Shown here piece by piece: positions 11,936 to 55,124 of a stretch of 64,000 nt of DNA. The notes below the pieces were generated by a model that saw nothing but the letters and a program-made list of their open reading frames with translations, searched no databases and had not been told where the DNA came from. The position numbers and the translations under genes were made by a program. How positions within the stretch are numbered: position 1 is the stretch's first letter; each line of letters starts with the position of its first letter. This DNA is from Microbacterium sp. W4I20 (GTDB lineage: Bacteria; Actinomycetota; Actinomycetes; Actinomycetales; Microbacteriaceae): positions 1,178,001-1,242,000 of the forward strand of contig NZ_JAUSYB010000001.1 in assembly GCF_030816505.1 (NCBI RefSeq), in the 5' to 3' direction.

Positions 11936-11996
11936 GTTCCCGTGGCAGCTGTCGTGGGTTCGGGGCCGCTGAAGCCGCAGCAACTGCCACGGGAGC
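11936..11996. repeat. 61-bp palindromic element A1
   Basis: Perfect 11-bp outer arms (TCCCGTGGCAG at 11938-11948 and its complement at 11984-11994) with a partly paired interior. It lies between the Lrp gene stop and the TetR gene start, both on the minus strand. It belongs to the group of elements at 35537, 40308, 40846 and 44204. Confidence 0.85.
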
Positions 11997-12006
11997 GGAG
12001 CAGGCG

Positions 12007-12438
12007 TCAGGCGAAGTCCTCGAAGATCAGCGTGGTCCGCGTCGAGCGGATCGAGGGGATCGCCTGGATGTCCTCGAGCACGATGCGCCGCAGATCTCGC
12101 GCGTCGTTGGCACGCACGAGGAGGATCACGTCGAAGTCTCCGCCGACGAGTGCCATGTGCTCGATCTCGGGGATCCTGCGCAGCCGATCCCGCACGTCCT
12201 GCCAGGTCGCCTGTTCGATCGCGAGGGTCACATAGGCGCTCGCATGGTGCCCCAGAAGCACCGGATCGGTGCGCACCGAGTAGCCGGTGATGACCCCGGC
12301 ATCCGTGAGTCGCTTGATGCGGGCGTGCGCGCCGGCGCGGGAGATGTGCACGGCCTCCGCGATCGCCGTCATCGATGAGCGGGCGTCGCGCCGGAGCTCG
12401 TCGAGGATCGCGCGGTCGGTGTCGTCCAGCGTCGTCAT
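12007..12438 (-). CDS. Lrp/AsnC-family regulator (BkdR-like)
   Basis: A 143-residue regulator: an N-terminal helix-turn-helix (TAIAEAVHISRAGAHARIKRL) and a C-terminal Lrp ligand-binding (RAM) domain with the GGDFDVILLV strand. It is divergent from the 2-oxoacid dehydrogenase genes, the classic arrangement for BkdR, which responds to branched-chain amino acids or their keto acids. GAGGGGG five to six bases upstream supports the ATG at 12438. An upstream ATG (12465) and a longer frame to 12543 lack such a site. The 152-base divergent intergenic region (12439-12590) probably holds the operator, but no clear repeat was seen in it. Confidence 0.87.
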   Translation of the reverse strand: MTTLDDTDRAILDELRRDARSSMTAIAEAVHISRAGAHARIKRLTDAGVITGYSVRTDPVLLGHHASAYVTLAIEQATWQDVRDRLRRIPEIEHMALVGGDFDVILLVRANDARDLRRIVLEDIQAIPSIRSTRTTLIFEDFA

Positions 12439-12590
12439 GGGAACCCCCTCGTTCGTCGTCGACATTCTGACACTTCGATCTCGAATACGGCAATCCGACA
12501 CGGTTCGTCCAGCATTCACCGCTGTCTCTTGGATGACTGTCACCGACGAGGCATGCTTGCCCCATCGAGTTCGGCAAGGAGGGCGGACGG

Positions 12591-13709
12591 ATGCTGCACA
12601 CGGAGATGCTCCCGCGAGACACCGCGGTACGACTGATCGACGAGAACGGCGAGCGCGTCATCGACGAGCACTACGCCCTTCCCGACACCGACACCCTGCT
12701 CCGCGCGTACCGGGGGCTCGTCGAAGGACGACGCATCAACGACCAGGCCGGCGCCCTGGTGCGTCAGGGCCGCCTCGCGGTCTACCCGTCATCGCACGGA
12801 CAGGAGGCGTGCCAGGTCGGCGCCTCGCTGGTCCTCGGTGAGTCCGACTGGCTGTTCCCGACCTACCGCGACTCGGTCGCCGTCATCTCCCGCGGCGTCG
12901 AGCCGGCGGACGCGATGGTGCTCCTCAAGGGCGACTGGCACTCGGGCTACGACGTGCGCGCCCATCGGGTCGCTCCCCAGGCCACGCCCCTCGCCACGCA
13001 ACTGCTGCATGCCGTCGGCTTCGCGCAGGCGGCGAAGCACCGCGGCGAGGACACGGTCGTGCTCGCGCTCTGCGGCGACGGGGCCACGAGCGAGGGCGAT
13101 TTCCACGAGGCGATGAACTTCGCGGCGGTCTTCCACGTCCCCGTCGTGTTCTTCGTGCAGAACAACGAGTTCGCGATCTCGGTGCCGCTGTCCCGCCAGA
13201 CGGCCGCGCCCTCGCTCGCACACAAGGCGATCGGGTACGGCATGCCGGGGCAGCGGGTCGACGGCAATGACGTGGCCGCCGTCCTCGCCGTGCTCGGCGA
13301 GGCTGTCGATCGCGCACGTACCGGCGGCGGACCCTCGCTGATCGAAGCGCACACCTACCGGATGCAGGCGCACACCAACGCCGACGACGACACGCGCTAC
13401 CGCGAGCGCGACGAGGTGCAGGCGTGGATCGCCCGCGACCCCCTGCTCCGCCTGCGCGCGCATCTGACCGAGACGGGCGTGCTCGACGCGGAGGCCGAGG
13501 AGCGCTTCGCCGCCGGCGCCGAGGAGATCGCCGCCGCGATGCGCACGGCACTGAACACCGATGCCGACCTCGACCCCGAAGACCTCTTCCGGTTCGTGAC
13601 CGATACCCGCTCGCCGCAGCTCGAGGAGCAGTGGCAGCTGCTGCGCGGCGAGATCGAACGATCGCAGCTCGCCGAGACGGAAAGCGCACACACCGGAGGT
13701 GCTCGATGA
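12591..13709 (+). CDS. bkdA: 2-oxoacid dehydrogenase E1 component, alpha subunit
   Basis: A 372-residue thiamin-diphosphate subunit that, with the next gene, decarboxylates a 2-oxoacid and passes the acyl group to E2. The ThDP motif GDGATSEGDFHEAMN with a following NN is present, and the phosphorylation-loop region YRMQAHTNADDDTRYR is as in BCKDH/PDH E1alpha. The divergent Lrp regulator and the E1-E2 order point to a branched-chain type complex. The operon then runs straight into phenylacetate genes, so aryl-pyruvates are an alternative substrate (inference). GGAGGG precedes the ATG by seven bases. No E3 gene is in the window. Confidence 0.88.
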   Translation: MLHTEMLPRDTAVRLIDENGERVIDEHYALPDTDTLLRAYRGLVEGRRINDQAGALVRQGRLAVYPSSHGQEACQVGASLVLGESDWLFPTYRDSVAVISRGVEPADAMVLLKGDWHSGYDVRAHRVAPQATPLATQLLHAVGFAQAAKHRGEDTVVLALCGDGATSEGDFHEAMNFAAVFHVPVVFFVQNNEFAISVPLSRQTAAPSLAHKAIGYGMPGQRVDGNDVAAVLAVLGEAVDRARTGGGPSLIEAHTYRMQAHTNADDDTRYRERDEVQAWIARDPLLRLRAHLTETGVLDAEAEERFAAGAEEIAAAMRTALNTDADLDPEDLFRFVTDTRSPQLEEQWQLLRGEIERSQLAETESAHTGGAR

Positions 13710-14740
13710 CCATCGCCCCTGACGACGTGGACACCCGGACCGGTTCACCGGCTCGGGAGGTGGCGACCATGAGCATGGCCGCCGCGCTCAACCGGGCACT
13801 GGCGGACGCGATCGAGGCCGACCCGGATGTGGTCGTCTTCGGTGAGGACGTCGGCGCGCTCGGCGGCGTCTTCCGCATCACCGACGGGCTCACCGCCCGG
13901 TACGGCGAGGAACGCTGCTTCGACACCCCGCTCGCGGAATCGGGCATCGTCGGCACCGCCGTCGGCATGGCCATGAACGGCATGCGCCCGGTCGTCGAGC
14001 TGCAGTTCGACGCGTTCGCTCTCCCGGCCTTCGAGCAGGTGGTCAGTCACGTCGCGAAGCTCGGCAACCGCACCCGCGGGGGCATGCGGATGCCGCTGGT
14101 GATCCGCATCCCGTTCGGCGGCGGCATCGGCGGGGTCGAGCACCACTGCGATTCCTCCGAGGCCTACTACGCGCACACCCCGGGCCTCACCGTGGTCAGC
14201 CCCTCGACTCCCCAGGACGCGTACTCGCTGCTCCGCGCGGCCATCGCCTCGCCCGACCCGGTCGTCTTCCTCGAGCCGAAGAAGCTGTACTGGAGCAAGG
14301 GCGAGGTCGACACGTCGATCACGGCCGAGATCGGATCGGCCCGCATCGCGCGGGACGGCACCGACGTCACACTGCTGGCCTACGGCGCCGCGGTGCCGCT
14401 CGCGATGGAGGCCGCTGAAGCGGCAGCATCCGAGGGTCGCAGCGTGCAGGTGGTCGACGTGCGATCGCTCTCCCCGTTCGACGACGCGACCGTGACGGCC
14501 GCGGTGAAGTCCACCGGCCGGGCCGTCGTGATCGCGGAGGCTCCGGGCTACGCCTCCGTGGCCTCTGAGATCCAGGCGCGGGTGTTCGAGCGCTGCTTCG
14601 AGTTCCTCGAGGCGCCGGTGCGTCGCGTCACCGGCTTCGACGTGCCGTATGCCCCGCCGAAGCTCGAGCACTGGTATCTGCCCGACGTCGACCGCGTCCT
14701 CGACGCCATCGACACGCTGCACTGGGACGAGGAAGCATGA
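13706..14740 (+). CDS. bkdB: 2-oxoacid dehydrogenase E1 component, beta subunit
   Basis: A 344-residue partner of E1alpha (transketolase-like pyrimidine-binding plus C-terminal domain). Conserved segments include FGEDVGALGGVFRIT, FDTPLAESGIVG and MPLVIRIPFGGGIGG. The reading frame is open for another 94 codons upstream, but the ATG at 13706 overlaps the E1alpha stop (ATGA), has CGGAGGT upstream, and gives the family length. The subunits form an alpha2beta2 heterotetramer bound to the E2 core. Confidence 0.92.
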   Translation: MTIAPDDVDTRTGSPAREVATMSMAAALNRALADAIEADPDVVVFGEDVGALGGVFRITDGLTARYGEERCFDTPLAESGIVGTAVGMAMNGMRPVVELQFDAFALPAFEQVVSHVAKLGNRTRGGMRMPLVIRIPFGGGIGGVEHHCDSSEAYYAHTPGLTVVSPSTPQDAYSLLRAAIASPDPVVFLEPKKLYWSKGEVDTSITAEIGSARIARDGTDVTLLAYGAAVPLAMEAAEAAASEGRSVQVVDVRSLSPFDDATVTAAVKSTGRAVVIAEAPGYASVASEIQARVFERCFEFLEAPVRRVTGFDVPYAPPKLEHWYLPDVDRVLDAIDTLHWDEEA

Positions 14741-16175
14741 GCACGCCCACCGTGGGCACCGCGCAGGTGTTCCGACTTCCCGATCTCGGCGAGGGGCTGA
14801 CCGAGGCAGGTCTCGTGCAGTGGCTCGTCGCCGTGGGCGACACCATCACGACCGATCAGCCGATCGCCGAGGTGGAGACCGCGAAGAGCATCGTCGAGCT
14901 CCCCTCGCCGTTCGCGGGTGTCGTGACCGCCCTGCACGGCACGGCCGGCGACACGATCGACGTCGGCTCTCCCGTGCTGGAGGTGGCGGATGCCGCGGCT
15001 GGCGCCGCTTCCGAACCCACCCCCGGCCCCACCTCCGGAGGTGCCGTGGAGCAGGAGGCCTACCGGGAGGAGGAGCGCGCCGGTTCGGGCAACGTGCTCA
15101 TCGGCTACGGCACCAACGAGCGCGCAGCATCCGGGCGCCGCCGCCCCGCCGTCACCCCCGCGAAGCGCGGAGACTCGGCCGTCTCCCGGACGATCTCGCC
15201 CGCATCGCCCGAGCACGAGCCGATCGTCCGAGAAGCGGATGCCGGTCACCGCCGCCCGGTCGCCGTCCGCTCCCCACTGGTGCGGCGTCTGGCCCGCGAC
15301 CTCGGTCTCGACGTGCACGCGATCACCGCGACCGGAGCCGACGGCGCCGTGACTCGCGCCGACGTGCTGCGCGCGGCGGTCGACAACGCCGTGGACGGCG
15401 CCGCCGCGCACCACACAGCCGCGAACACCACATCGAACGCTGCGTCGATCGGCGATGGCACCGGCGAGACCGTCGACGGGCTCGCGGTGCGCGCCCGCGA
15501 GCGGATGTCGCCGCTGCGCAAGGCTGTCAGCGCCAAGCTCACGCGCAGCCGGTCCGAGATCCCGGAGGCGACGGTCTGGGTCGACGTCGACGCGACCGCG
15601 CTGTGGAACCTCCGCGCCGAGATGGCACCCGAGGGAGTCAAGCCGCCGTCGATCACCGCCCTCCTCGCCCGCTTCGTACTCCTCGCCCTCGAGGACTACC
15701 CGATCCTCGCCTCGCGCCTGAGCGAGGATGCCGGTGAGCTGATCTCCTTCGACGGCGTGAACCTCGGCGTCGCGGCCGACACCGAGCGTGGGCTGATGGT
15801 CCCGGTGATCCCGGGTGCGCACACCCTCAGCGTGGAGCAGCTCGACAGCGCGTTGCGCGAAGTCGCGGCATCCGCCCGGTCGGGATCGATGCCGCCCGAG
15901 CGACTCCGCGGATCGACGTTCACCCTGAACAACTACGGCGGGCTCGGGGTGGACGGCTCCGCGGCGATCATCAACCACCCGGACGTCGCGATCCTCGGCA
16001 TCGGCCGGATCATCGAGCGCCCCTGGGTCGTGGAGGGCGAGATCGTCGTCCGACGCATCGCCCAGCTCTCCCTGGTCTTCGACCACCGGGTCTGCGACGG
16101 AGGATACGCGGCCGGGTTCCTGCGTCGCGTGACCGAGCTCATCGAGCATCCGCTGCGCGCTTTCGGGAGGGTCTG

Positions 16176-16176
<1 letters not shown>
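14737..16176 (+). CDS. bkdC: 2-oxoacid dehydrogenase E2 component (dihydrolipoamide acyltransferase)
   Basis: A 479-residue E2 core protein. It has one lipoyl domain with the lipoylated Lys at residue 50 (VETAKSIVE), a long Ala/Pro/Glu-rich linker, a peripheral-subunit-binding domain (SPLVRRLARDLGLDV, about residues 180-215), and the acyltransferase domain with the catalytic DHRVCDGG near the C-terminus. A single lipoyl domain is typical of branched-chain complexes; many actinobacterial pyruvate/oxoglutarate E2 proteins carry two or three. The start overlaps the E1beta stop by four bases, and the stop overlaps the thiolase start by one base. Confidence 0.92.
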
Positions 16177-17359
<1,183 letters not shown>

Positions 17360-17363
<4 letters not shown>

Positions 17364-18094
17364 CAGTGCGGGTCGAGGAGCGAGCCGACCGGGTCGTCGC
17401 GACCCTGGATCGTCCGGAGAAGCGCAACGCCATCGATCAGGAGACCATCGACGCCCTGCACGACCTGTGCGCGCTGCTCGAGGAGAACCCGCGCACGCTC
17501 ATCCTGACCGGCGCAACAGGTGTCTTCGCGGCCGGCGCCGACATCGCGCAGCTTCGGGAGCGCACGGCCGACGACGCGCGCCGAGGCATCAACGCGACCG
17601 CGTTCATCCGCGTCCGCGAACTGCCAATGCCGGTGATCGCGGCGATCGACGGATATGCGCTGGGCGGCGGCGCCGAGCTCGCCTATGCCGCCGACATCCG
17701 TATCGGCACCCCCGCGCTGCGGATCGGGAACCCCGAGACCGGGCTGGGGATCATGGCCGCGGCCGGAGCCGCCTGGCGTCTGCCCGAGATCGTCGGCGAG
17801 GCCAGGGCGAGTGAGCTCCTGCTCACCGGTCGCACGCTCGACGCCGACGAAGCCCTCGCCTGGGGGCTGGTCTCCGCACTGCACCACCCCGACGACCTGC
17901 TCACCGCGGCGCACGCCATCGCCGACCGGATCGCGGCGAACGACCCGCTCGCCACCCAGCACACCAAGCGGGCCCTGCGAACGCCGCGGGCCGGACACCC
18001 TGCGATCGAGCTCGAGCTGCAGGCCGAGCTGTTCGAGTCGCCGGAGAAGCACCGCCGGATGACGGCTTTCCTCGAGAGGCGGGCCGCGCGATGA
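17360..18094 (+). CDS. paaF: Enoyl-CoA hydratase (PaaF-like)
   Basis: A 244-residue crotonase-fold hydratase. Both catalytic glutamates of true hydratases are present with the normal 20-residue spacing: one in GGGAELAYAAD and one in GNPETGLG. The oxyanion-hole segment AAGADIAQL is also present. In the phenylacetate pathway PaaF hydrates 2,3-dehydroadipyl-CoA. The second crotonase in the window (34758) lacks these glutamates, so the two are functionally distinct. The ATG overlaps the thiolase stop by four bases; an upstream in-frame start at 17312 would lie deep inside the thiolase gene and was not used. Confidence 0.86.
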
Positions 18095-21053: not shown

Positions 21054-21433
21054 GGGAGATGATGCGGCGCGATGCCGCGTCGGCCGCGCTCGGCATGGTC
21101 GTCGACCTCGACGAACCCGGCCGTTCCGTCGTGTCGATGCTGGTGCGGGACGACATGCTCAACGGCTTCGCCATCACGCACGGGGGCCTCGTGTTCGCGC
21201 TCGCGGACACGGCCTTCGCCCTCGCCTGCAATGAAGACGAACGCGTCACCGTCGCGGCGGGAGCGGACATCACGTTCCTGAAGTCGACGCACGCCGGACA
21301 GACCCTCACCGCGACGGCGATCCGACGCGTACGCTCCGGACGCACCGGTCTCTACGACGTCACGGTGACGGATGACATGGGGGACGTCGTCGCGGAGTTC
21401 CGCGGCCGCTCCGTCACGACGAACCGGCGCTAG
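21050..21433 (+). CDS. paaI: Hydroxyphenylacetyl-CoA thioesterase PaaI
   Basis: A 127-residue hot-dog-fold thioesterase. The core has NGFAITHGGLVFALADTAFALACN, matching the PaaI signature with the catalytic Asp and the HGG loop. It is thought to release CoA from dead-end acyl-CoA intermediates so the free-CoA pool is not depleted. The ATG at 21050 overlaps the paaZ stop (ATGA); ATG codons at 21059 and 21062 are alternative starts. It is the last gene of the coupled run; a convergent lipoprotein gene follows after six bases. Confidence 0.9.
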   Translation: MREMMRRDAASAALGMVVDLDEPGRSVVSMLVRDDMLNGFAITHGGLVFALADTAFALACNEDERVTVAAGADITFLKSTHAGQTLTATAIRRVRSGRTGLYDVTVTDDMGDVVAEFRGRSVTTNRR

Positions 21434-26080: not shown

Positions 26081-26141
26081 GTTCCGGTCGCGATATTCCA
26101 GGCATCCGGGGTCGATTCGGCTGGAATATCGCGACGGGAGC
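26081..26141. repeat. 61-bp palindromic element B1, inside the dha operon
   Basis: Perfect 15-bp arms GTCGCGATATTCCAG (26087-26101) and its complement (26121-26135), extended outward with one mismatch to a G(C/T)TCC edge. It sits between dhaK and dhaL on the same transcript, so full termination here would cut the operon. Confidence 0.87.
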
Positions 26142-35536: not shown

Positions 35537-35597
35537 GCTCCCGTGGCAGTTCGTGTGGGTTCACCGCCGGCGAAGCCGCACGAACTGCCACGGGAGC
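35537..35597. repeat. 61-bp palindromic element A2
   Basis: Perfect 19-bp arms, GCTCCCGTGGCAGTTCGTG (35537-35555) and its complement (35579-35597), with a 23-base interior. It lies between convergent genes paaG and the P-loop kinase and could terminate both. Confidence 0.92.
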
Positions 35598-40307: not shown

Positions 40308-40368
40308 GCTCCCGTGGCATTTGCAGTGGGTTGCGAGCCCCCGAACCCGCAAGAACTGCGACGGGAGC
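40308..40368. repeat. 61-bp palindromic element A3
   Basis: Outer arms GCTCCCGTGGCA and GCGACGGGAGC pair with one mismatch; the interior pairs partly. It lies between two genes in the same direction (ThDP enzyme and Nudix). Confidence 0.85.
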
Positions 40369-40845: not shown

Positions 40846-40906
40846 GCTCCCGTGGCAGCTCCTGCGGGGTGAGAGACGCCGAATCCGCAACAGCTGCCAC
40901 GGGACC
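40846..40906. repeat. 61-bp palindromic element A4
   Basis: Arms TCCCGTGGCAGCT and AGCTGCCACGGGA (13 bp, perfect). The right edge reads GGGACC instead of GGGAGC. It lies between the convergent Nudix and VOC genes. Confidence 0.87.
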
Positions 40907-41477: not shown

Positions 41478-43349
41478 TCAGCTCGCGGGAAGGAACGCCC
41501 CCTCCAGGAAGGCGCCGAGCTCGTCGACCCCGCCCAGCGGCAGGATCGCCGAGACGTACTGATCCGGCCGCACCACGATCACCACTCCGTCTCGCGACAG
41601 CTCCCGCGCCTCGTAGATGTCGGTCTCCGTCCACTTCGACGGCCCGGCGGCGTAGACCTTCTCCCAGTCCGTGAGACCGAGAGGTCCGGTCTTCGGCTGG
41701 AACAGCGCCGGAGCCGACGTGACCTCGATCTCCTCGTACCCCTGCTGGTACACGGCCTTCACATCGAACACCGCGTCGACATCGGCCTCCGCCGGGGTGA
41801 ATCGCGCGAACAGCGGCGTCGCCTGCTCGGCCCAGGCCGCGAGCGCCTCGCCGGTCCGGTCGCCGAAGGCGTAAACGCGCCAGCGCCCATCCGCCCTGGC
41901 ATGGTGACCGAGGTGGACCACGTTCCCGTCGCCGACGCGGATGACCTCGGCCGACTTGAACCGCTTGCCCAGCGGGAACCCGCCTGCCAGCGCCTGATGG
42001 GTGTCGGAGCCGGTGATCATCGACGACGTGTACTGCGTCATGAACCCGGAGGGGAACTCGGCCGTGGCCAGGTAGTAGGTGGCCAGCTCATTGGGGTCGG
42101 AGATCTCGCCCGGCTTCCGCGCCATGAGCGTCGACCATTCCCGGTCGAAGTCGATCAGCTGCTGCGCGACCGGGCGGCGCTCGGCGCCATACGTCGCGAG
42201 CAGCGACTCGGGCGCGAGGCCTGTCAGCACCGAGCCGAGCTTCCAGCCGAGGTTGAATCCGTCCTGCATCGAGACGTTCATCCCCTGGCCGGCCTTGGCG
42301 CTGTGGGTGTGGCACGCATCACCGGTGAGGAAGACACGCGGCATGCGATCCGATTCCTCGAGCACGTCGTCGAAGCCGTCGGTCACCCGGTGCCCGACCT
42401 CGTACACGCTGTGCCAGGCGACCTCCTTCACGTCGATCGAGTACGGGTACAGGATGTCGTTCGCCTTGCGGATGATCTCCTCGATCGGCGTCTGCCGTAC
42501 CCGGTGGTCGTCGTCCTCCGCCACCTCGCCGAGGTCGATGTACATCCGGCTGAGATACCCGCCTTCGCGCGGGATGTGCAGGATGTTGCCCGCCTCGGAG
42601 TTGATCGCGCACTTGGTGCGCCAGTCGGGGAAGTCGGTGTTCACCAGCACGTCCATGACGCCCCACGCGTGCGCGGCACTGCCGCCGACGTGGGTGCGAC
42701 CGATCGCCTGCCGCACTCCGCTGCGCGCGCCGTCGCAGCCGGCGACGTACTTCGCCCGGATGGTCTGCTCCTCGCCCGCGCGCTCCCCCGCCACATGGCG
42801 GACCCGGACCTCGACGGGGTACTCGCCCTCGTCGTGCACCGTGAGTCCCACGAACTCGATGCCGTAGTCGGGCGTGATGCGCCCGGGGCCGTCGGCGGCC
42901 GCCTCGGCGAAGTAGTCCAGCACTCGCGCCTGGTTCACGATCAGGTGCGGGAACTCGCAGATGTCGTAGGCGTAGTCGGCCGTGCGGGTGGTGCGGATGA
43001 TCTCGCGAGGATTCTCCGGGTTCGGGCTCCAGAAGTTCATCCAGCCGATGTTGTACGCCTCGGCGACGATGCGCTCCGCGAAGCCGAAGGCCTGGAAGGT
43101 CTCGACGCTGCGCGGCTGGATGCCGTCGGCTTGGCCGAGCACGAGGCGCCCCTCGCGCTTCTCGATGATGCGCGTCGAGATGTCGGGGTACTGCGACATC
43201 TGCGCGGCGAGCAGCATGCCGGCGGGACCGGAACCGACGATGAGGACGTCGACCTCGTCGGGGAGGTGCGCCGGTCGATCCGTTCCCAGACCGGCGGCAT
43301 CCTGCACGCGCGGATCTCCGGAGACGTACCCGTGGTGGTGGAACTGCAT
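41478..43349 (-). CDS. FAD-dependent aromatic hydroxylase, MobA (3-hydroxybenzoate 4-monooxygenase) type
   Basis: A 623-residue class A flavin monooxygenase: FAD Rossmann motif VGSGPAGMLLAA, the CDGARSGVRQ block, and GDACHTHSAKAGQGMN, followed by a thioredoxin-like C-terminal domain seen in phenol hydroxylase/MobA. It should add a hydroxyl next to a phenolic hydroxyl using NAD(P)H and oxygen. MobA makes protocatechuate. Here the neighbouring operon degrades homoprotocatechuate, so a hydroxyphenylacetate substrate is possible (inference). It is divergent from the IclR regulator, with two operator palindromes between. AAGG precedes the ATG. Confidence 0.85.
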   Translation of the reverse strand: MQFHHHGYVSGDPRVQDAAGLGTDRPAHLPDEVDVLIVGSGPAGMLLAAQMSQYPDISTRIIEKREGRLVLGQADGIQPRSVETFQAFGFAERIVAEAYNIGWMNFWSPNPENPREIIRTTRTADYAYDICEFPHLIVNQARVLDYFAEAAADGPGRITPDYGIEFVGLTVHDEGEYPVEVRVRHVAGERAGEEQTIRAKYVAGCDGARSGVRQAIGRTHVGGSAAHAWGVMDVLVNTDFPDWRTKCAINSEAGNILHIPREGGYLSRMYIDLGEVAEDDDHRVRQTPIEEIIRKANDILYPYSIDVKEVAWHSVYEVGHRVTDGFDDVLEESDRMPRVFLTGDACHTHSAKAGQGMNVSMQDGFNLGWKLGSVLTGLAPESLLATYGAERRPVAQQLIDFDREWSTLMARKPGEISDPNELATYYLATAEFPSGFMTQYTSSMITGSDTHQALAGGFPLGKRFKSAEVIRVGDGNVVHLGHHARADGRWRVYAFGDRTGEALAAWAEQATPLFARFTPAEADVDAVFDVKAVYQQGYEEIEVTSAPALFQPKTGPLGLTDWEKVYAAGPSKWTETDIYEARELSRDGVVIVVRPDQYVSAILPLGGVDELGAFLEGAFLPAS

Positions 43350-43413
43350 CGTCGTCGATCCTTCCGGACTGCGGTGTCGGGGTGGTGCTCAGCTCTTGCC
43401 ATCCGAACTCACG

Positions 43414-43450
43414 TGTTCTATATTCGAACAGCAAGTTCTACTATTGAACA
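43414..43450. promoter_or_regulatory. Two tandem IclR operators
   Basis: GTTCTATATTCGAAC (43415-43429) and GTTCTACTATTGAAC (43435-43449) are 15-bp sites with GTTC/GAAC arms, each followed by A and centred 20 bp apart. They lie in the divergent promoter region of the MobA-like gene and the IclR gene. Confidence 0.75.
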
Positions 43451-43490
43451 CAGCTTATTCGCGACCGCCCGCAGACGCAAGGAGTCACCG

Positions 43491-44195
43491 ATGGCTGACG
43501 CCCCCTCCCCCGCATCGCAGACGCTGAGCCGCGGCATCCGGATCCTTGAGATCGTGGCCGATGCCGCCGGCCCGCTCGCGATCGACGAGGTCGCGGCAGA
43601 ACTCGGCGTGCATCGCTCGATCGCCTATCGCCTTCTGCGCACTCTCGAGGACCATGGCCTCGTGGTGCGCGACGCCGGCGGAGGCGTGAGCCTCGGAGCG
43701 CGGATGGCGGCCCTCGCCGCGGGCGTCGCGCACGATCTGCAGGCGGAAGCCCTGCCTGAGCTCACTGCTGTGGCGAACGAGCTGGGTATGACGTGCTTCC
43801 TCGCAGTGCTCGACGGCGAGGACTGCATCACGCTCGCGAGCGTCGAGCCGCGGCACGCGATCGCGAGCGTCGCGCAGCGCCCCGGCGCCCGGCACCCGGT
43901 CACGGTCGGCGCCCCGGGCAAGGCGATCCTCGCCCAGCTCCCCCGCGCCGAGTGGCCCTCCGACGCCTCTGCCGAGCTCCGACGCGATGTCGACCTCACG
44001 CGCGAACGCGGGTACGGGACGAGTCACGACGAGGTCATCCCTACGGTGCAGTCGGTGGCTGCCCCGCTGGTCCTCCGCGGCCGCCGCCCCGCCGCCATCG
44101 CCGTGGTGCACGTCGCGACATCACTCGACGACGCGGCGATCGCCGCTCGCCTGCAGCGCTCCGCCACGGTCATCCGCGACGCCCTCGACGGCTGA
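43491..44195 (+). CDS. IclR-family regulator
   Basis: A 234-residue regulator: winged helix (LAIDEVAAELGVHRSIAYRLLRTL) and an IclR effector domain, slightly shorter than the usual 250. The ATG at 43491 has AAGGAG six bases upstream. The frame is open far upstream (to 41901), but that part is antisense to the hydroxylase gene. It is divergent from the MobA-like hydroxylase and probably controls that gene and itself through the paired GTTC-N7-GAAC sites. Relatives (PobR, PcaR) respond to hydroxybenzoate or protocatechuate-pathway compounds. Confidence 0.88.
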   Translation: MADAPSPASQTLSRGIRILEIVADAAGPLAIDEVAAELGVHRSIAYRLLRTLEDHGLVVRDAGGGVSLGARMAALAAGVAHDLQAEALPELTAVANELGMTCFLAVLDGEDCITLASVEPRHAIASVAQRPGARHPVTVGAPGKAILAQLPRAEWPSDASAELRRDVDLTRERGYGTSHDEVIPTVQSVAAPLVLRGRRPAAIAVVHVATSLDDAAIAARLQRSATVIRDALDG

Positions 44196-44203: not shown

Positions 44204-44264
44204 GCTCCCGTGGCAGTTCCTGTGGGTTGCCGAGGAGACAACCCACAGAAAGTGCCACGGGAGC
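44204..44264. repeat. 61-bp palindromic element A5
   Basis: The longest arms in the group: 25 bp with two mismatches, from GCTCCCGTGGCA inward to CTGTGGGTT (44204-44228 with 44240-44264). It lies between the convergent IclR and transporter genes. Confidence 0.92.
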
Positions 44265-45663: not shown

Positions 45664-45726
45664 GGGGTGTCTCCTTTGGTTGTGACCGCATTGTCACGGC
45701 GTGCAGCGGACGTGAATCCGGACCGC

Positions 45727-45756: not shown

Positions 45757-45817
45757 TTCGAATACGACGCACAAGGCGTCTCGCAGGACAACGCAGACGA
45801 GCGCAAGGAGGCGCACC

Positions 45818-48000: not shown

Positions 48001-49493
48001 CCGACTCGCGCATTCCCGCCGACCTTCCTGACCACATCCAGCACTACATCGACGGCGCATTCGTCGATTCGGTCGACGGCGACACCTTCGACGTGCTCGA
48101 CCCGGTCACGAACCAGACCTACACGACGGCAGCCGCCGGCAAGAAGGCCGACATCGAGCTGGCCGTGGCCGCCGCGAAGCGCGCCTTCGAAGAGGGACCG
48201 TGGCCGCGGATGCTGCCGCGCGAGCGTTCGCGTGTGCTGCACAGGATCGCCGACATCGTCGAGTCCCGCGATGCGCGTCTCGCCGAGCTCGAGTCCTACG
48301 ACTCCGGCCTGCCGATCACCCAGGCGCTGGGCCAGGCCCGCCGTGCCGCCGAGAACTTCCGCTTCTTCGCCGACCTGATCGTGGCGCAGTCGGATGACGC
48401 GTTCAAGGTGCCCGGTCGCCAGATGAACTACGTGAACCGCAAGCCGATCGGCGTCGCCGGCCTCATCACCCCGTGGAACACCCCGTTCATGCTCGAGTCG
48501 TGGAAGCTCGGCCCCGCCCTCGCGACCGGCAACACCGTCGTGCTGAAGCCCGCCGAGTTCACGCCGCTCTCGGCATCGCTCTGGGCGGGCATCTTCGAGG
48601 AGGCGGGGCTCCCCCAGGGCGTCTTCAACCTCGTGAACGGGCTCGGCGAGGACGCCGGCGACGCGCTCGTGAAGCACCCCGATGTTCCGCTGATCTCGTT
48701 CACCGGGGAGAGCTCGACCGGGCAACTGATCTTCGGCAACGCCGCTCCGTTCCTCAAGGGGCTCTCGATGGAGCTCGGCGGCAAGTCCCCCGCCGTCGTC
48801 TTCGCGGATGCCGACCTCGAGGCCGCGGTCGACGCCACGATCTTCGGCGTCTTCTCGCTCAACGGCGAGCGCTGCACGGCCGGATCGCGCATCCTCGTCG
48901 AGCGTTCGATCTACGGGGAGTTCGTCGAGCGCTACGCCGCCCAGGCGAAGCGCGTGAAGGTGGGCTACCCGCACGACCCGGCTACCGAGGTCGGCGCGCT
49001 CGTGCACCCCGAGCACTACGACAAGGTGATGAGCTACGTCGAGATCGGGAAGACCGAGGGGCGCCTCGTCGCCGGCGGCGGACGCCCCGAGGGCTTCGAC
49101 GAGGGCAACTTCGTCGCTCCGACCGTCTTCGCGGACGTCTCCCCCGACGCGCGCATCTTCCAGGAGGAGATCTTCGGCCCGGTCGTCGCGATCACGCCGT
49201 TCGACTCCGATGACGAGGCGCTGTCGCTCGCGAACAACACGAAGTACGGGCTCGCCGCCTACATCTGGACCAACGACCTGAAGCGCGCGCACAACTTCGC
49301 GCAGGCGGTCGAGGCCGGCATGGTGTGGCTGAACAGCAACAACGTGCGCGATCTGCGCACCCCGTTCGGCGGCGTGAAGGCCTCGGGCCTCGGTCACGAG
49401 GGCGGCTACCGCTCGATCGACTTCTACACCGATCAGCAGAGCGTGCACATCACCCTCGGGGGCGCGCACAACCCGACCTTCGGCAAGAACTGA
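47997..49493 (+). CDS. hpaE: 5-carboxymethyl-2-hydroxymuconate semialdehyde dehydrogenase
   Basis: A 498-residue NAD-dependent aldehyde dehydrogenase. The Rossmann/cofactor region is TPWNTPFMLESWKLGPALA, the catalytic Glu is in SMELGGKSP, and the catalytic Cys in NGERCTAGSR. It oxidises the ring-cleavage product of HpaD. Context (regulator before, HpaD, HpaH and HpaI after) supports HpaE over a general aldehyde dehydrogenase. The start overlaps the GntR gene by four bases. A 61-bp palindrome lies between this gene and hpaD. Confidence 0.92.
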   Translation: MTDSRIPADLPDHIQHYIDGAFVDSVDGDTFDVLDPVTNQTYTTAAAGKKADIELAVAAAKRAFEEGPWPRMLPRERSRVLHRIADIVESRDARLAELESYDSGLPITQALGQARRAAENFRFFADLIVAQSDDAFKVPGRQMNYVNRKPIGVAGLITPWNTPFMLESWKLGPALATGNTVVLKPAEFTPLSASLWAGIFEEAGLPQGVFNLVNGLGEDAGDALVKHPDVPLISFTGESSTGQLIFGNAAPFLKGLSMELGGKSPAVVFADADLEAAVDATIFGVFSLNGERCTAGSRILVERSIYGEFVERYAAQAKRVKVGYPHDPATEVGALVHPEHYDKVMSYVEIGKTEGRLVAGGGRPEGFDEGNFVAPTVFADVSPDARIFQEEIFGPVVAITPFDSDDEALSLANNTKYGLAAYIWTNDLKRAHNFAQAVEAGMVWLNSNNVRDLRTPFGGVKASGLGHEGGYRSIDFYTDQQSVHITLGGAHNPTFGKN

Positions 49494-49509
49494 CTCGCAC
49501 ACCCTCTCC

Positions 49510-49570
49510 GTTCCGGTCGCGATATGTCAGGCTTCTAGCCCCCATATCACTGACATATTGCGACCGGAAC
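49510..49570. repeat. 61-bp palindromic element B2, inside the hpa operon
   Basis: Arms of 21 bp with one mismatch (GTTCCGGTCGCGATATGTCA at 49510-49529, plus one more G) and a 19-base interior. It lies between hpaE and hpaD, within one transcription direction, as B1 does in the dha operon. Confidence 0.92.
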
Positions 49571-49590
49571 CCTCAAGCAAGGACGCTGAC

Positions 49591-50727
49591 ATGACCGACC
49601 GCGAAGACATGACTCTGACCTCCGCCGGATACTACGTCTCTCAGGAGGCGCCGATCCGCACGGACAACCCCGTGAGCACGCCCCAGAGCTCGCCGCCGGA
49701 CATCCTCCGCTGCGCCTACATGGAGCTCGTCGTCACCGACCTCGCGGCCTCCCGCGTGTTCTACGTCGACGTGCTCGGCCTGTACGTGACCGAGGAGGAT
49801 GACGAGGCGATCTACCTGCGCTCGACCGAGGAGTTCATCCACCACAACCTCGTGCTGCGCACGGGTCCGGTCGCTGCAGTGGCCGCGTTCTCGTATCGGG
49901 TCAGGTCCGCAGAGGACCTCGACCGCGCCGTCGAGTTCTACACCGAGCTCGGCTGCGACGTGCGCCGCAACCCGGACGGCTTCGTCAAAGGCGTCGGCGA
50001 CTCGGTGCGCGTGGTCGACCCGCTCGGATTCCCGATCGAGTTCTTCCACCAGTCCGACCACGTCGAGCGGATGTCGTGGCGCTACGACCTGCACATCCCG
50101 GGCGAGCTGGTGCGACTCGACCACTTCAACCAGGTCACCCCCGACGTGCCGCGCGCGGTGAAGTTCATGCAGGACCTCGGCTTCCGCGTCACGGAGGACA
50201 TCCAGGACGACGAGGGCACGGTCTACGCCGCGTGGATGCGTCGCAAGCCCACCGTGCACGACACCGCCATGACCGGCGGCGACGGTCCGCGCATGCACCA
50301 CGTCTGCTTCGCCACGCACGAGAAGCACAACATCCTCGCGATCTGCGACAAGCTCGGCGCCCTCCGCCGTTCGGATGCCATCGAGCGCGGCCCCGGCCGT
50401 CACGGCGTCAGCAACGCGTTCTACCTGTACCTGCGCGACCCCGACGGCCACCGCGTCGAGGTGTACACGCAGGACTACTACACCGGCGACCCCGACAACC
50501 CGGTCATCACGTGGGATGTGCACGACAATCAGCGCCGCGACTGGTGGGGCAACCCCGTCGTGCCGTCCTGGTACACGGATGCCTCGCTCGTGCTCGACCT
50601 CGACGGCACCCCGCAGCCCGTCGTCGCCCGCACCGACAGCAGCGAGATGGCCGTGACCATCGGCGCCGACGGCTTCTCCTACACGCGGCCCGACGAGGGC
50701 GAGAAGAAGCTGGGCAACCAGCTGTGA
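49591..50727 (+). CDS. hpaD: Homoprotocatechuate 2,3-dioxygenase
   Basis: A 378-residue type I extradiol dioxygenase (two VOC repeats) that cleaves 3,4-dihydroxyphenylacetate. It is very close to the structurally known Brevibacterium fuscum enzyme as I recall it. With an offset of 23 residues, the metal ligands are His178 (RLDHFNQVTPD), His237 (MHHVCFATHEK) and Glu290 (GHRVEVYTQDY), and the catalytic His200 equivalent is His223 (TVHDTAMTGG). The N-terminus is about 23 residues longer than B. fuscum. AAGGA supports the ATG at 49591; an ATG six codons later is an alternative. Confidence 0.96.
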   Translation: MTDREDMTLTSAGYYVSQEAPIRTDNPVSTPQSSPPDILRCAYMELVVTDLAASRVFYVDVLGLYVTEEDDEAIYLRSTEEFIHHNLVLRTGPVAAVAAFSYRVRSAEDLDRAVEFYTELGCDVRRNPDGFVKGVGDSVRVVDPLGFPIEFFHQSDHVERMSWRYDLHIPGELVRLDHFNQVTPDVPRAVKFMQDLGFRVTEDIQDDEGTVYAAWMRRKPTVHDTAMTGGDGPRMHHVCFATHEKHNILAICDKLGALRRSDAIERGPGRHGVSNAFYLYLRDPDGHRVEVYTQDYYTGDPDNPVITWDVHDNQRRDWWGNPVVPSWYTDASLVLDLDGTPQPVVARTDSSEMAVTIGADGFSYTRPDEGEKKLGNQL

Positions 50728-51512
50728 CGCTGTCAGACGAAAGCATCGCGCAGATCGCAGCGGAGCTCGCGGAGGCCGATCGCACGCACAGCGTGATCCC
50801 GCGGATCACCGCGCGGTATCCGGATGCCGTCATCGAGGACTCGTATGCGATCCAGGGCGTCTGGCGGGACTCGCAGATCGCTGCGGGCCGCCGTCTCGTC
50901 GGCCGCAAGATCGGCCTCACCTCGAAGGCGATGCAGCAGGCCACCGGTATCACCGAGCCGGACTACGGCGTGATGTTCGACGACACCGTCTACGAGTCGG
51001 GTGCTGAGATCCCGGTCGATCACTTCTCCAACGTGCGCATCGAGGTGGAGCTCGCGTTCGTGCTGAAGCTTCCGCTCGAAGGTCCCGACTGCACCCTGGA
51101 CGACGCGCTCGCGGCGATCGACTACGCCGTCCCCGCTCTCGAGGTGCTCAACTCTCACATCGAGCTCGAAGGCCGCACGATCGTCGACACGATCAGCGAC
51201 AACGCGGCCTACGGCGCGATGGTCCTGGGAGATGTGCACAAGCGCCCGGACGAGATCGACCTGCGCTGGGTACCCGGGGTCCTGTCGCGCAACGGCGAGA
51301 TCGAGGAGACCGGGGTCGCGGCCGGCGTCCTCGGCCATCCGGCCACCGGCGTCGCGTGGCTGGCGAACAAGTTCCATCAGCACGGCGCGCGCCTGGAGGC
51401 GGGAGAGATCATCCTGGCAGGATCGTTCACACGCCCGATGTGGGTGTCGCGCGGCGACGAGGTGCTGTGCGACTACGGACCGATGGGAACAATCGCATGC
51501 CGCTTCGTCTAG
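50724..51512 (+). CDS. hpaH: 2-oxo-hept-3-ene-1,7-dioate hydratase
   Basis: A 262-residue hydratase of the FAH-like hydratase/decarboxylase family (HpaH, MhpD, XylJ). The metal-binding Glu residues lie in [12 protein letters not shown], with the family blocks [19 protein letters not shown] and AGSFTRPM. It adds water to 2-oxohept-3-enedioate after decarboxylation. A GTG start overlaps the hpaD stop (GTGA). The C-terminus overlaps the next gene by 16 bases. Confidence 0.92.
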
Positions 51513-52297
51513 ACCCGTCGTTCCGCGAAGGCCTCGCCGCGTCCGACCGTGCGCTGATCGGGATGTGGGCGTGCTCCGGCAGTGCCCTTGTCACCGAGGT
51601 CGCCGCAGGGTCGGGCCTCGATTGGCTCCTCATCGACATGGAGCACGCGGCGAACACCCTCGAGTCGGTGCTGCTGCAGCTGCAGGTCGTCGCGGCCTAT
51701 CCGATCGTCCCGGTCGTGCGGGTGCCCGCCAACGACGCGGTCGCCATCAAGCAAGTGCTCGACCTCGGTGCACAGAACCTGATCGTGCCGATGGTGTCCT
51801 CCGCCGACGAGGCGCGCGCCGCCGTGGCTGCTACCCGCTACCCGCCGGAGGGCGTGCGCGGCGTCGGCAGTGCCCTGGCTCGCAGCGCCCGCTGGAACCG
51901 GGTCGACGGTTATCTGCAGGAGTCCGCCACGCACACGTCGCTCACCGTGCAGATCGAGACCGCCGCCGGGGTCGCCGCCGCCGCCGAGATCGCTGCGGTC
52001 GACGGGGTCGATGCGGTTTTCGTGGGTCCCTCCGATCTCTCGGCATCCATGGGCCTCCTCGGCCAGCAGACGCATCCCGAAGTCATCGCCGCGGTCGAGA
52101 CGGTGTTCGCCGCCGTCCAGGGCGCAGGCAGGCCGGTCGGCGTGAACGCGTTCGACCCGACCGCCGCCGATGCGTACATCGCCGCCGGTGCGGACTTCGT
52201 GGCCGTCGGCGCCGACGTGGCACTGCTCGCCCGAGCATCCGAGGCACTGGCCGCCCGTTTCATCGCCGCCGACGGAACTGCCCGCGCGAGCTACTGA
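51497..52297 (+). CDS. hpaI: 4-hydroxy-2-oxoheptanedioate aldolase
   Basis: A 266-residue class II aldolase of the HpaI/HpcH family. It cleaves 4-hydroxy-2-oxoheptanedioate to pyruvate and succinic semialdehyde. The catalytic His is in LLIDMEHAANTLES, the metal-binding Glu is in VQIETAAGV and the Asp follows in VFVGPSDLSASMG; PPEGVRGVGS is also typical. GGGA lies upstream of the ATG at 51497, which is within the end of hpaH. No succinic semialdehyde dehydrogenase is in the window. Confidence 0.92.
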   Translation: MPLRLDPSFREGLAASDRALIGMWACSGSALVTEVAAGSGLDWLLIDMEHAANTLESVLLQLQVVAAYPIVPVVRVPANDAVAIKQVLDLGAQNLIVPMVSSADEARAAVAATRYPPEGVRGVGSALARSARWNRVDGYLQESATHTSLTVQIETAAGVAAAAEIAAVDGVDAVFVGPSDLSASMGLLGQQTHPEVIAAVETVFAAVQGAGRPVGVNAFDPTAADAYIAAGADFVAVGADVALLARASEALAARFIAADGTARASY

Positions 52298-52306
52298 CCT
52301 CCCCCG

Positions 52307-52369
52307 CTTTCGAATCGCGCAACTGGGGGTTTCTCCACGTGTTTTGCTACCAATTGCGCGATTCGAAAG
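52307..52369. repeat. 63-bp inverted repeat after hpaI
   Basis: Arms of 20 bp with one mismatch, CTTTCGAATCGCGCAACTGG (52307-52326) and the complement (52350-52369), with a 23-base interior. It is related in size, not in edge sequence, to the 61-bp elements. It may separate the hpa operon from the MFS gene. Confidence 0.88.
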
Positions 52370-52417
52370 TTGCCGCGCATGGCAGGATTGCCAGGTGCAC
52401 AGGAGCGAGGCGATGAC

Positions 52418-53650
52418 GTGAGGCGCGGACTCGCCGCCATGCAGGACCGCAACTTCCGCTGGTTCTTCCTCGCCAGGGCGATCACGATGATCACCGGCTC
52501 GATGTCGTCGATCGCGCTCGCGTTCGCGGTGCTCGAGATCGACAACGACGCCCGTTCCTTGTCGTTCGTGCTCACCGCGTTCACGGTCAGCAACATCGTC
52601 TTCCTGCTGTTCGGCGGGGTCGTTGCCGATCGGCTGCCGCGGGCACTGATCATCCAGACCTGTTACGTGATCGACATCCTCACCATCGGCGCGATGGCGG
52701 CCCTGCTGTTCACGGGTTCAGCGACGGTTCCTCTGCTCATTCTGCTCTCGGTCGTGAACGGCGCCTCCACGGCGTTCGTCCTCCCGGCGATGCAGGGCAT
52801 CATCCCGCAGCTGACGAATCCGGAGAACCTGCAGCAGGCGAACGCCATGCTCTCCTTCGTGCGGTCCGCGGTCACGATCGGCGGTCCGATCATCGCCGGA
52901 ATCCTGGTCGCCACCGCAGGGCCCGCCTGGGCGATGGTGGTGCAGGCGGCGGGGTGGCTCGTTGCCATCCCCGTACTCGCCCTCGTCAAGCTCCCGCCGC
53001 CGGGGCATTCCGGCGGCACCTCGATGTTCCACGATCTCCGCATCGGCTGGACCGAGTTCTGGAGCCGTTCCTGGCTCTGGACGATCGTGCTCGCCTTCAT
53101 GGTGATGAATGCGATCCACGTCGGTGCCTGGAGCGTCATCGGACCCTTCATCGCGAAGAACAACGATCTGCTCGGCATCGCCGGCTGGGGGTGGGTGCTG
53201 AGCGCCGAGGGCGTCGGCGTGCTGCTCATGACGCTGATCCTGATGTGGTTCCCGCTCAAGCGGCCCCTGCGCTACGGCATGCTCGGCATGGCCGCCTTCG
53301 CCCTCCCGATCACCATGCTCGGCGTGCACCCCGCCGTCGTGCTCCTCGCCATCGCGGCGTTCATCGCGGGCGCCGGCGTCGAGGTCTTCAGCACCGGCTG
53401 GAACCTGGCGATGATGGAGAACGTTCCGGGCGAGAAGCTCTCCCGCGTCTCCAGCTACGACATGCTCGGCAGCTACGTGGCGATGCCGATCGGCACGCTG
53501 GTCTACGGCTGGCTGATCACCCATGCGGATGCTGCGACCGTGCTCATCGCGTCCGGAATCGTTTATGCGGGCGTCGCCCTCGCCACCCTCGCCGTGCCGA
53601 GCGTCTGGCGCATGGGACGCCCCGCCGACGCCCTCGCCCCCACCGGCTGA
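52418..53650 (+). CDS. MFS exporter (MFS_3/EntS-like)
   Basis: A 410-residue, 12-helix major facilitator with the pattern of EntS/macrolide-efflux MFS proteins (FLARAITMITGSMSSIALAFAVLE; loop GGVVADRLPRALI; VVNGASTAFVLPAMQGIIPQLT). It probably exports a small hydrophobic compound or siderophore; it may also help tolerance to aromatics, but no direct evidence links it to the hpa operon. The GTG at 52418 with GAGG seven bases upstream was preferred; the longer frame (52370) starts at the edge of the palindrome. Alternative start: ATG 52439. Confidence 0.82.
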   Translation: MRRGLAAMQDRNFRWFFLARAITMITGSMSSIALAFAVLEIDNDARSLSFVLTAFTVSNIVFLLFGGVVADRLPRALIIQTCYVIDILTIGAMAALLFTGSATVPLLILLSVVNGASTAFVLPAMQGIIPQLTNPENLQQANAMLSFVRSAVTIGGPIIAGILVATAGPAWAMVVQAAGWLVAIPVLALVKLPPPGHSGGTSMFHDLRIGWTEFWSRSWLWTIVLAFMVMNAIHVGAWSVIGPFIAKNNDLLGIAGWGWVLSAEGVGVLLMTLILMWFPLKRPLRYGMLGMAAFALPITMLGVHPAVVLLAIAAFIAGAGVEVFSTGWNLAMMENVPGEKLSRVSSYDMLGSYVAMPIGTLVYGWLITHADAATVLIASGIVYAGVALATLAVPSVWRMGRPADALAPTG

Positions 53651-53689
53651 CCCTGGCGCATTCATAGCAATACGGGCGAGACTGTCACC

Positions 53690-54412
53690 ATGACCTTCGC
53701 CGCGCTCCAGCCCCTCGCCGACCGTGCCGCCCTGTTCACCGCACTCCGCCAGGATGCTCTCTCCACCGCCGCCGACGCGCTGGGCGAGCACCGCTGGGAC
53801 GCGGACATGACGGCCGGCACGATCACCTTCACGGCCAACGCCGATCCGAGCCGCCAGCTCGTCGCGCGCGCCCACCTGATCGCGACGATCGCTCCGGGGC
53901 CGCGATCGATGCTCTGGGCGTGGGCGCACCCGCAGGGCGACGGCCAGGGTGTCGCGGCGCAGCTGCACGCGTACGGCGCCGAGCACGGCATCGCCGAGCT
54001 GACCACCCCGGAAGTCCCCTTCCCGGCGGATGCGGCGGGCGACGAGGAATGGATCGCACAGGCGGCGCACGTCGTCGGCGGCGTCGCGGTGGAACTCACC
54101 GGACGATCGCCCTACTACTCCGCCCCGGTCGGCGGCGGAACGCGCGCGGTCTTCCTGCTCGATGCGCCGCTGCCTCCGCTGGCGGTGTCGGATGCCGTCA
54201 TCGCGCTGCCACGCATCCTCTCCGGCCTGTCGCTGAGCGACGCCCGCACTTCGGTCTGGGATCTCGCCCGTCTCGCGGGCTGGTCGCTCACGTGGACCGA
54301 CGATGCCTTCTCCGGCGCGACAGTCGTGGACGCGTCGGGCTCGGCCACCTTCCGCTTCGACGAGCAGGCACGCATCAGCGGCATCGAGGGCTCGCTGCAG
54401 GCGCAGAGCTGA
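53690..54412 (+). CDS. DUF6882-like protein of unknown function
   Basis: A 240-residue cytosolic protein with no signal or membrane segment. Aromatic blocks LGEHRWDADMTAGTITFTAN and PGPRSMLWAWAHPQG match the DUF6882 pattern seen in actinobacteria, as far as I recall. No catalytic motif is recognised. GAGACT ends six bases before the ATG, a weaker form of the leaderless arrangement. It follows the MFS gene by 39 bases in the same direction. Confidence 0.65.
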   Translation: MTFAALQPLADRAALFTALRQDALSTAADALGEHRWDADMTAGTITFTANADPSRQLVARAHLIATIAPGPRSMLWAWAHPQGDGQGVAAQLHAYGAEHGIAELTTPEVPFPADAAGDEEWIAQAAHVVGGVAVELTGRSPYYSAPVGGGTRAVFLLDAPLPPLAVSDAVIALPRILSGLSLSDARTSVWDLARLAGWSLTWTDDAFSGATVVDASGSATFRFDEQARISGIEGSLQAQS

Positions 54413-54489
54413 GTCGGGCGGCGCGCACGCCGCGCCGGAGCAATGCGTCAAACTCCGCCGGACTGCTCGCGGTGTGGGATTCTGGTCGC

Positions 54490-55053
54490 ATGAAGAACGG
54501 AATCGTCCGGTTCGTATCGCTCTATGTGTTCAACGTCGCGGTCCTGCTGCTCATCGGCGTTCTGCTGCGCGGTGTCTCCGTCGGTCTGAACGCGCTGTGG
54601 GCGGCCATCATCCTCACCCTCGCCGCGCTCTTCGTGAAGCCGCTGCTGCGCACGGCCTTCCGGCGTTCGGCCGCGAAGTCCGCCGGCGATCGCACGAGGA
54701 CGGGCGAGAAGGTCGTCCAGTACGTGCTGGTGTACCTCGTCGAACTGATCGTCTGGGTGCTCACGGTGTGGCTGAGCGGGGTGCGGTCCTCGAGCTTCTG
54801 GGGCTATGTCATTCCGCCGCTGCTTCTTCTGGTCGGCTGGGTCGTCTACGACCGGATCGACGACATGCTCCACGCCAAGGCCTCGCAGGTGTACGACGCG
54901 GTGCAGGCGCGGGTGCGGGGCGGCTCGAAGCCCGCGGCATCCGCTTCGTCGGCCGCTCCCGCCTCTGAGCACCGCGAGACGTCGGCCGCTCGCGACGAGC
55001 TCAAGGACGGCCTGACTCCCGAGCAGCGACGCATGTTCGACGAGCTGGGCTGA
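54490..55053 (+). CDS. Small membrane protein with charged C-terminal tail, unknown function
   Basis: A 187-residue protein with about four hydrophobic segments (VSLYVFNVAVLLLIGVLL; ALWAAIILTLAALFV; VLVYLVELIVWVLTVWL; YVIPPLLLLVGWVV) and a cytoplasmic Ala/Ser-rich tail ending LTPEQRRMFDELG. It resembles small actinobacterial membrane proteins without assigned role. The frame is open far upstream, but the ATG at 54490 marks the natural membrane-protein start; GATTCT lies six bases upstream. A strong bidirectional hairpin follows. Confidence 0.65.
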   Translation: MKNGIVRFVSLYVFNVAVLLLIGVLLRGVSVGLNALWAAIILTLAALFVKPLLRTAFRRSAAKSAGDRTRTGEKVVQYVLVYLVELIVWVLTVWLSGVRSSSFWGYVIPPLLLLVGWVVYDRIDDMLHAKASQVYDAVQARVRGGSKPAASASSAAPASEHRETSAARDELKDGLTPEQRRMFDELG

Positions 55054-55063
55054 CCCCAGCCCC

Positions 55064-55124
55064 GCTCCGGTCGCGAAAAGGCACCCATTTCACGGTGGAA
55101 TGGGTGCTTTTTCGCGACGCGAGC
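55064..55124. terminator. 61-bp palindromic element B3 acting as bidirectional terminator
   Basis: Perfect 9-bp inner stem GCACCCATT/AATGGGTGC followed by TTTTT on the plus strand and by CCTTTT on the minus strand, plus outer arms TCGCGAAAA/TTTTCGCGA and GCTCC/GCGAGC edges. It is flanked by two convergent gene ends, so it can terminate both. Outer length is again 61 bp. Confidence 0.88.

Follow-up and report, generated by a model that had tools for sequence, protein, structure and literature searches.

A dispersed family of 61-bp palindromes in Microbacterium and its putative partner, an AbiEi-like/DUF559 nuclease

The window analysed here, a 64,000-nucleotide stretch of Microbacterium sp. 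W4I20 (contig NZ_JAUSYB010000001.1, positions 1,178,001 to 1,242,000), carries a series of long palindromes (Table 1). The initial annotation listed eight of them, each 61 bp long with GCTCC-type edges and one of two kinds of arm, placed only between genes and after stop codons. This description holds: the eight coordinates are exact, the span is 61 bp in 8/8, the edges are GCTCC or GTTCC in every copy, five have GTGGCA-type arms (class A) and three GTCGCGA-type arms (class B), and each of the eight occupies a space between called genes, with the closest stop codon 2-24 bp away. Gene calls around the elements came from a purpose-made simple gene caller. A further palindrome, of a third class, was absent from that list. 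The elements probably belong to a selfish system of two parts, as its cognate sites and as copies standing alone (solos); the other part would be an AbiEi-like/DUF559 nuclease.

Table 1. Palindromes and other features of the window (positions are those of the 64,000-nucleotide stretch)
Feature	Position	Strand	Length	Context
Class A palindrome (GTGGCA half-sites)	11936..11996	+	61 bp	
Class B palindrome (GTCGCGATATTCC)	26081..26141	+	61 bp	between Dak1 and Dak2 genes
Class A palindrome	35537..35597	+	61 bp	convergent genes
Class A palindrome	40308..40368	+	61 bp	3' of thiamine pyrophosphate (TPP)-enzyme gene
Class A palindrome	40846..40906	+	61 bp	convergent NUDIX / glyoxalase-like genes
Class A palindrome	44204..44264	+	61 bp	convergent IclR / major facilitator superfamily (MFS) genes
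Class B palindrome	49510..49570	+	61 bp	between aldehyde dehydrogenase and dioxygenase-like genes
Third-class palindrome (TTTCGAATCGCGCAA...)	52308..52368	+	61 bp	solo
Class B palindrome (GTCGCGAAAAGGCACCC)	55064..55124	+	61 bp	convergent, 3' of tetrahydrofolate (THF) dehydrogenase/cyclohydrolase (folD-like) gene
Long palindrome (CGCGAAGGCGGGACA...)	2223-2285		63 bp	in a spacer; belongs to none of the recognised families
ZTP riboswitch (Rfam RF01750)	57319-57403	-		upstream of minus-strand gene pair 57279-55130, whose second gene is folD-like; the 55064 element lies at the pair's 3' end

An Rfam scan of the window at gathering scores returned the ZTP riboswitch as its sole match, and the palindromes had none. 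Two of the eight elements, 26081 and 49510, are flanked by same-strand, operon-like neighbours, which speaks against a plain terminator.

The family extends well beyond the window. In the 4.31-Mb genome, a covariance model built from the eight elements found 46 GCTCC-family places. Of these, 45 measure exactly 61 bp and one 62 bp, so that neither a chance-level copy number nor a spread of lengths emerged from the genome-wide search that the initial annotation had proposed. The same model listing holds one third-class element, making 47 places in all; as 150 of 1422 first-look candidates were scored, weak copies may be absent from this census. Class A was also checked without the model. A 13-base arm pattern gave 30 matches in the own genome, 29 of them inside listed elements, and 0-2 matches in each of 38 others, making the class nearly private to its own genome among the 39, while a reversed control pattern gave three matches there and 0-7 elsewhere. 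Where both arms matched the pattern, their offset was 46 bp in 9/9 places.

The listed elements are unevenly spread over 1.07-3.65 Mb of the 4.18-Mb contig; two sampled 200-kb stretches held, among the matches listed, one weak 71-bp match alone. This match (30.8 bits), at L166:688-758 (own genome, 0.26 Mb), stands apart from the other listed elements and may be a divergent or unrelated palindrome. An origin or terminus signal was considered and rejected, with dnaA at 2.576 Mb and the elements uneven across their range. One listed element (1.069 Mb) falls within a called open reading frame (ORF). Convergent gene pairs flank 17/47 places, compared with 47/280 spaces of at least 60 bp in the same stretches, and divergent genes flank 6/47. 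The gene caller missed the nuclease gene described below, so one of the 17 convergent places is actually tandem.

The initial annotation also held that the two arms had changed together with pairing kept, and this stands across classes. Standard pairs occupy 88% of 200 arm cells in the eight window elements, against 71% after shuffling, and both sides are altered in 16/25 pairs, a value reached by 0/500 shuffles. Within class A (25 copies), pairing reaches 280/350 cells against 266 for independently shuffled arms (p 0.004), so little above the shuffled value that each arm appears to track one half-site consensus, the two varying almost independently around it. Co-change of the arms therefore lies mainly between classes and sub-classes and is not compensatory change within a class. 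Some class B elements, judged by eye, resemble hybrids of two sub-classes. A purely RNA reading of the stem was rejected because class A arms co-vary little beyond their consensus, and a near-constant length is better matched by a fixed distance between two half-sites than by selection for an RNA hairpin. Spacing is likewise constant in 7/7 third-class palindromes, in a further family, D (four distinct places), and in a family from another genus genome, G032 (6/6 pairs). A half-site consensus kept even without pairing, at constant spacing, is expected from a dimeric reader of duplex DNA; the homing endonuclease I-Bth0305I is described as dimerising on a target of nearly 60 bp (PMC3943268).

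A candidate reader was found at 1.384 Mb, where two class-A elements 1.1 kb apart enclose a 331-amino-acid ORF on its own. It is the one ORF with homologues inside its unit, judged among the ORFs there with smaller overlapping ones set aside. The protein matches Pfam DUF559 weakly, below the cut-off. A protein search found 371 relatives at E 1e-5 among 7992 candidates scored; among the matches listed (120 of 371), the named organisms are mostly Microbacterium. Across an alignment of 42 relatives, acidic, histidine and arginine residues of the C-terminal domain are invariant. AlphaFold modelled the protein with confidence, and in VIA-align the model's C-terminal domain matches I-Bth0305I and Vsr while its N-terminal part matches AbiEi; the fold of the catalytic domain, as a structural match of a predicted model, agrees with EDxHD/Vsr-like nucleases. 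The bracketed ORF probably encodes a DNA-cutting enzyme. Weak AbiEi profile matches occur in 4/6 DUF559 proteins of the own genome, the class-A one not among them, and one relative carries the source name 'type IV toxin-antitoxin system AbiEi family antitoxin domain-containing protein'. A phage or plasmid home was considered and rejected: there was no phage match, and plasmid records gave two distant matches.

The same layout recurs at other DUF559 loci. A profile search found relatives of the nuclease in 37/39 genus genomes (84 matches), from which 70 loci were taken (30 with the search and 40 of the other 54) and 67 scored, leaving out L195 and L204 (uncertain gene position) and L222 (short flank). 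The repeat test compared the two sides of each gene, scoring whether the 350 bp of one flank repeat a stretch of the other. Matching flank repeats were present at 57/67 genus loci, compared with 3/150 control genes of the own genome and 8/300 from named relatives, and long palindromes stood on both sides at 34/67 loci, compared with 3/150 and 12/300 controls. DUF559 matches occur in 53/79 genomes of the order. There, 25 of 29 loci were used (one from the genus, two from the same family; L274 was already counted, and L288, L291 and L294 were short or doubtful), of which 18 have matching repeats and 11 have palindromes on both sides. Eight DUF559 genes were found in the own genome, five of which exceed Pfam's cut-off. 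Matching repeats accompany all eight, and six of the eight have palindromes of one family on both sides; loci from the own genome and the order were given 30 extra upstream bases relative to controls. Two of these families had already been met as dispersed palindromes in an unbiased scan. The families differ among loci, e.g. GCTCAGGTATGAGTT, CCGGTTCGCCAGTGCGGGC or GAGTGTCCAAGACACG. When flanks taken from different DUF559 loci serve as the null, its 99th percentile is 37.4 and 17/69 loci exceed it; we think this null is inflated by shared families and two badly placed loci, and prefer the control genes. At L245, L246 and L247 (own genome, 0.18, 1.11 and 4.17 Mb) longer palindromes of about 78-90 bp surround the genes; they resemble nested doublets built from a short motif, perhaps reflecting a different recognition mode.

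Palindrome similarity tracks protein similarity among these loci (Mantel p 0.0005). The share of locus pairs with a palindrome match of at least 14 rises with protein identity: over five identity classes in ascending order it is 0, 1, 9, 32 and 70%, the classes holding 501, 681, 149, 37 and 10 pairs. For instance, the palindrome of G032 has 22 arm matches in that genome, where its reversed pattern has none, and 0 in the 38 others; among the 39 genomes searched, the family occurs in that of its nuclease alone. On contig G032:C1 (1.50-1.71 Mb), 7/14 solos lie within 100 kb of the nuclease (expected 0.9), which suggests local spread.

Comparison of orthologous sites, which the initial annotation had suggested, revealed copies that are present, absent or class-switched among relatives. 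Model matches occur in 18/58 genomes (own included; 93 candidates scored in each), and abundance is patchy. At site 49510, seven listed species carry the element, their spacers measuring 86-93 bp (the window's is 97 bp); in many others the spacer is 13-33 bp long and lacks it, and still others have unrelated long palindromes. Two repeat families also occur at this orthologue, a GGTCGTTGAGCGAGCGAAGCGAGACGAAACG-like one in L051, L067, L071, L086 and L087 and a CCCTTCGACAGGCTCAGGGACC-like one in L091, L108 and L119. Site 44204 is occupied in relatives by elements with class B arms, by other palindromes or by ordinary hairpins; the relatives' loci were retrieved with ORF 41901-44195, an over-extended frame across two divergent genes, and the region is still correct. 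The variable states at both sites imply that elements have been gained, lost or exchanged, though some places are old.

At the orthologue of site 52308, one relative (L075) has a palindrome, an intact nuclease ORF and a second palindrome between the same two genes, while another (L085) has the end of a nuclease alone (37/37 residues as in P0024) beside one palindrome. Nuclease genes with another palindrome family stand at the site in L051 and L052, and likewise in L087, where the locus stops short of the gene downstream. In L048, L049, L081 and L120 the spacer is short and lacks the third-class palindrome. Read from its sequences, this one orthologous site is found in empty, solo, full-unit and decayed states. 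The class-A unit itself is present in G005, where the nuclease and both palindromes occupy the orthologous locus. In G022, whose two neighbouring genes are about 85% identical, the spacer is short and the unit absent.

These observations can be assembled into a model in which the full unit would consist of an AbiEi-like/DUF559 (Vsr- or EDxHD-like) nuclease gene with a copy of its own palindrome on either side, and additional solos would lie scattered between genes. Two nuclease protomers may read two inverted half-sites of about 25 bp each around an 11-bp centre, in which case their spacing would set the length of the element. Cleavage at or near the palindrome could then lead to the palindrome or the whole unit being copied into new intergenic places, a step to which we give an even chance. 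Less likely is that the gene homes into solo sites already present, and some other route is less likely still. Solos would be either non-autonomous copies or remnants of units that lost the gene, and their location just past stop codons probably reflects tolerance, not selection. Binding, cutting or movement of the palindromes by the nuclease is inferred here from sequence patterns. The initial annotation had offered either a selected DNA or RNA structure or a non-autonomous mobile palindrome; presence and absence at sites, class switching and the bracketed single-gene unit favour the mobile palindrome, and a selected RNA hairpin is the less likely of the two.

Several results weigh against this model. 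Lengths are not everywhere constant: family E has a span of 85 bp at three places and of 86 and 98 bp at two others, and among GCTCC-family elements of other species, mostly 61 bp long, 7/23 listed are 59, 60 or 62 bp. The best Foldseek E-value of the nuclease (to I-Bth0305I) is 0.067, and a sequence search of the PDB with it gave no match. A clear repeat pair is absent at 10/67 genus and 7/25 order loci, long palindromes on both sides are confined to the 34/67 and 11/25 given above, and the score cut-offs (17, 13, 4 model rows) were chosen after the data were seen. The Mantel test is uncorrected for species relatedness, and the association between palindrome and nuclease among genomes, taken at one model row instead of four, weakens to 7/8 versus 8/27 (p 0.011). 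Two genomes depart from it: G002 has 20 model rows and no nuclease match at E 1e-10, and G034 has eight with distant nucleases alone; their elements may be relics or be served by a more distant enzyme. Class-A solos cluster near the nuclease within 200 kb (11/23, expected 2.2) but number 3/23 within 100 kb, and the clustering compared with class B is not significant (p 0.12). As for boundaries, no target site duplication was noticed at 49510 and 52308, where the empty and filled sites compared gave no base-exact pair. Finally, some elements occupy the same orthologous site in different species, and the host may be using them as terminators or mRNA stabilisers.

That last point leads to the view that the palindromes are bidirectional terminators or mRNA 3'-end stabilisers which the host selects and keeps after stops, with the nuclease gene merely among them. 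The excess of convergent neighbours (17/47 places, one really tandem, versus 47/280 control spaces) and the many relatives that carry some other hairpin at site 44204 agree with it, as does the conservation of some positions. Yet no T-rich tract follows the elements and no A-rich tract precedes them: T occurs in 2-13/47 at each of the ten positions after the element, and A in 1-13/47 before it. The two elements between operon-like neighbours and the six places between divergent genes fit poorly, a terminator does not require a shared sequence family of near-constant length, and the matching repeats around DUF559 genes would be left unexplained. This view is improbable. It is also unlikely, if the least so of the alternatives, that the palindromes serve a defence or toxin-antitoxin-like system as operators or marker sites, with an AbiEi-like part binding them to regulate or steer the nuclease and no transposition involved. 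The AbiEi-like N-terminal fold of the model, the weak profile matches and source name noted above, and the repeats on both sides of the gene would suit such a system, but dozens of solos are far removed from the gene, next to unrelated metabolic genes, just one ORF with known homologues stands between two palindromes, and palindromes and units come and go at orthologous sites.

Dispersed intergenic palindromes with a nuclease-like gene between two copies also recall repetitive extragenic palindromic (REP) elements moved by a REP-associated tyrosine transposase (RAYT), an enzyme of the Y1 HUH type. The initial annotation had pointed to a RAYT/IS200-like transposase as partner, a suggestion that failed: no Y1_Tnp match was found in the own genome or the 39 genus genomes, while 5/14 control genomes were positive, and the candidate partner is instead the DUF559/Vsr-like nuclease. 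Since the elements are in addition 61-bp pairs of inverted half-sites, mobilisation by a RAYT is very improbable. Chance hairpins, which high G+C content makes common in spacers, are close to negligible as an explanation, given the shared sequence, the near-constant length and arm patterns with 22 and 30 matches in one genome each against 0 and 3 when reversed.

The way of life proposed for the palindromes and their nuclease nevertheless resembles that of REP/RAYT (TnpA-REP) systems, REPtrons and REPINs. These are described as having a nuclease gene between two palindromes together with intergenic solos, as showing enzyme and palindrome changing together, and as having an abundance of cognate copies that goes with the gene (PMC2817692, PMC3116915, PMC8266576). 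Here too, an enzyme gene is bracketed by two cognate palindromes, the palindrome co-varies with the enzyme, and abundance follows the gene, with G002 and G034 as exceptions. The enzyme, however, is AbiEi-like/Vsr-like rather than a Y1 HUH transposase, and the palindromes are 61-66 bp and up to about 100 bp long, compared with the 20-40 bp given for REPs (PMC3733652). I-Bth0305I and Vsr provide the best structural matches of the C-terminal domain, whereas the N-terminal part here is AbiEi-like and the gene is intergenic and palindrome-bracketed, with many solo sites per genome. Unlike AbiE type IV toxin-antitoxin systems, the AbiEi-like part is fused to a nuclease-like domain, and no second gene was recognised in the own unit. 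Miniature inverted-repeat transposable elements (MITEs) and insertion sequence (IS) terminal repeats are short, dispersed and non-autonomous, and akin to the termini of a larger unit. The solos share these features, but a solo is one end palindrome rather than a shortened unit, and no target duplication was noticed.

With no Y1 transposase found, the system is not filed as a member of REP/RAYT. We rate it as a new kind, because enzyme class and element design differ though the way of life looks alike; grouped by way of life, it would count as a variant of REP/RAYT. On balance, we favour the view that the nucleases represent a previously undescribed, order-wide class of selfish DNA, in which each AbiEi-like/DUF559 enzyme would spread a private, fixed-spacing inverted repeat read as a dimer. 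This would be a non-homologous counterpart of REP/RAYT, with a homing-type nuclease keeping dispersed palindromes. No paper linking DUF559 to palindromes or transposition was found in the searches made of the open-access literature.

DUF559 is widespread in the order and has no function assigned in Pfam, and the private palindromes give it a testable one, that of a sequence-specific dimeric nuclease. The pairing of DUF559 genes with palindromes would also explain several families of long intergenic palindromes at once, a reminder that such intergenic hairpins are not necessarily host terminators. If the model is true, these nucleases represent a second, unrelated solution to the REP/RAYT lifestyle, and would offer many natural pairs of enzyme and site for studying how nuclease specificity evolves.

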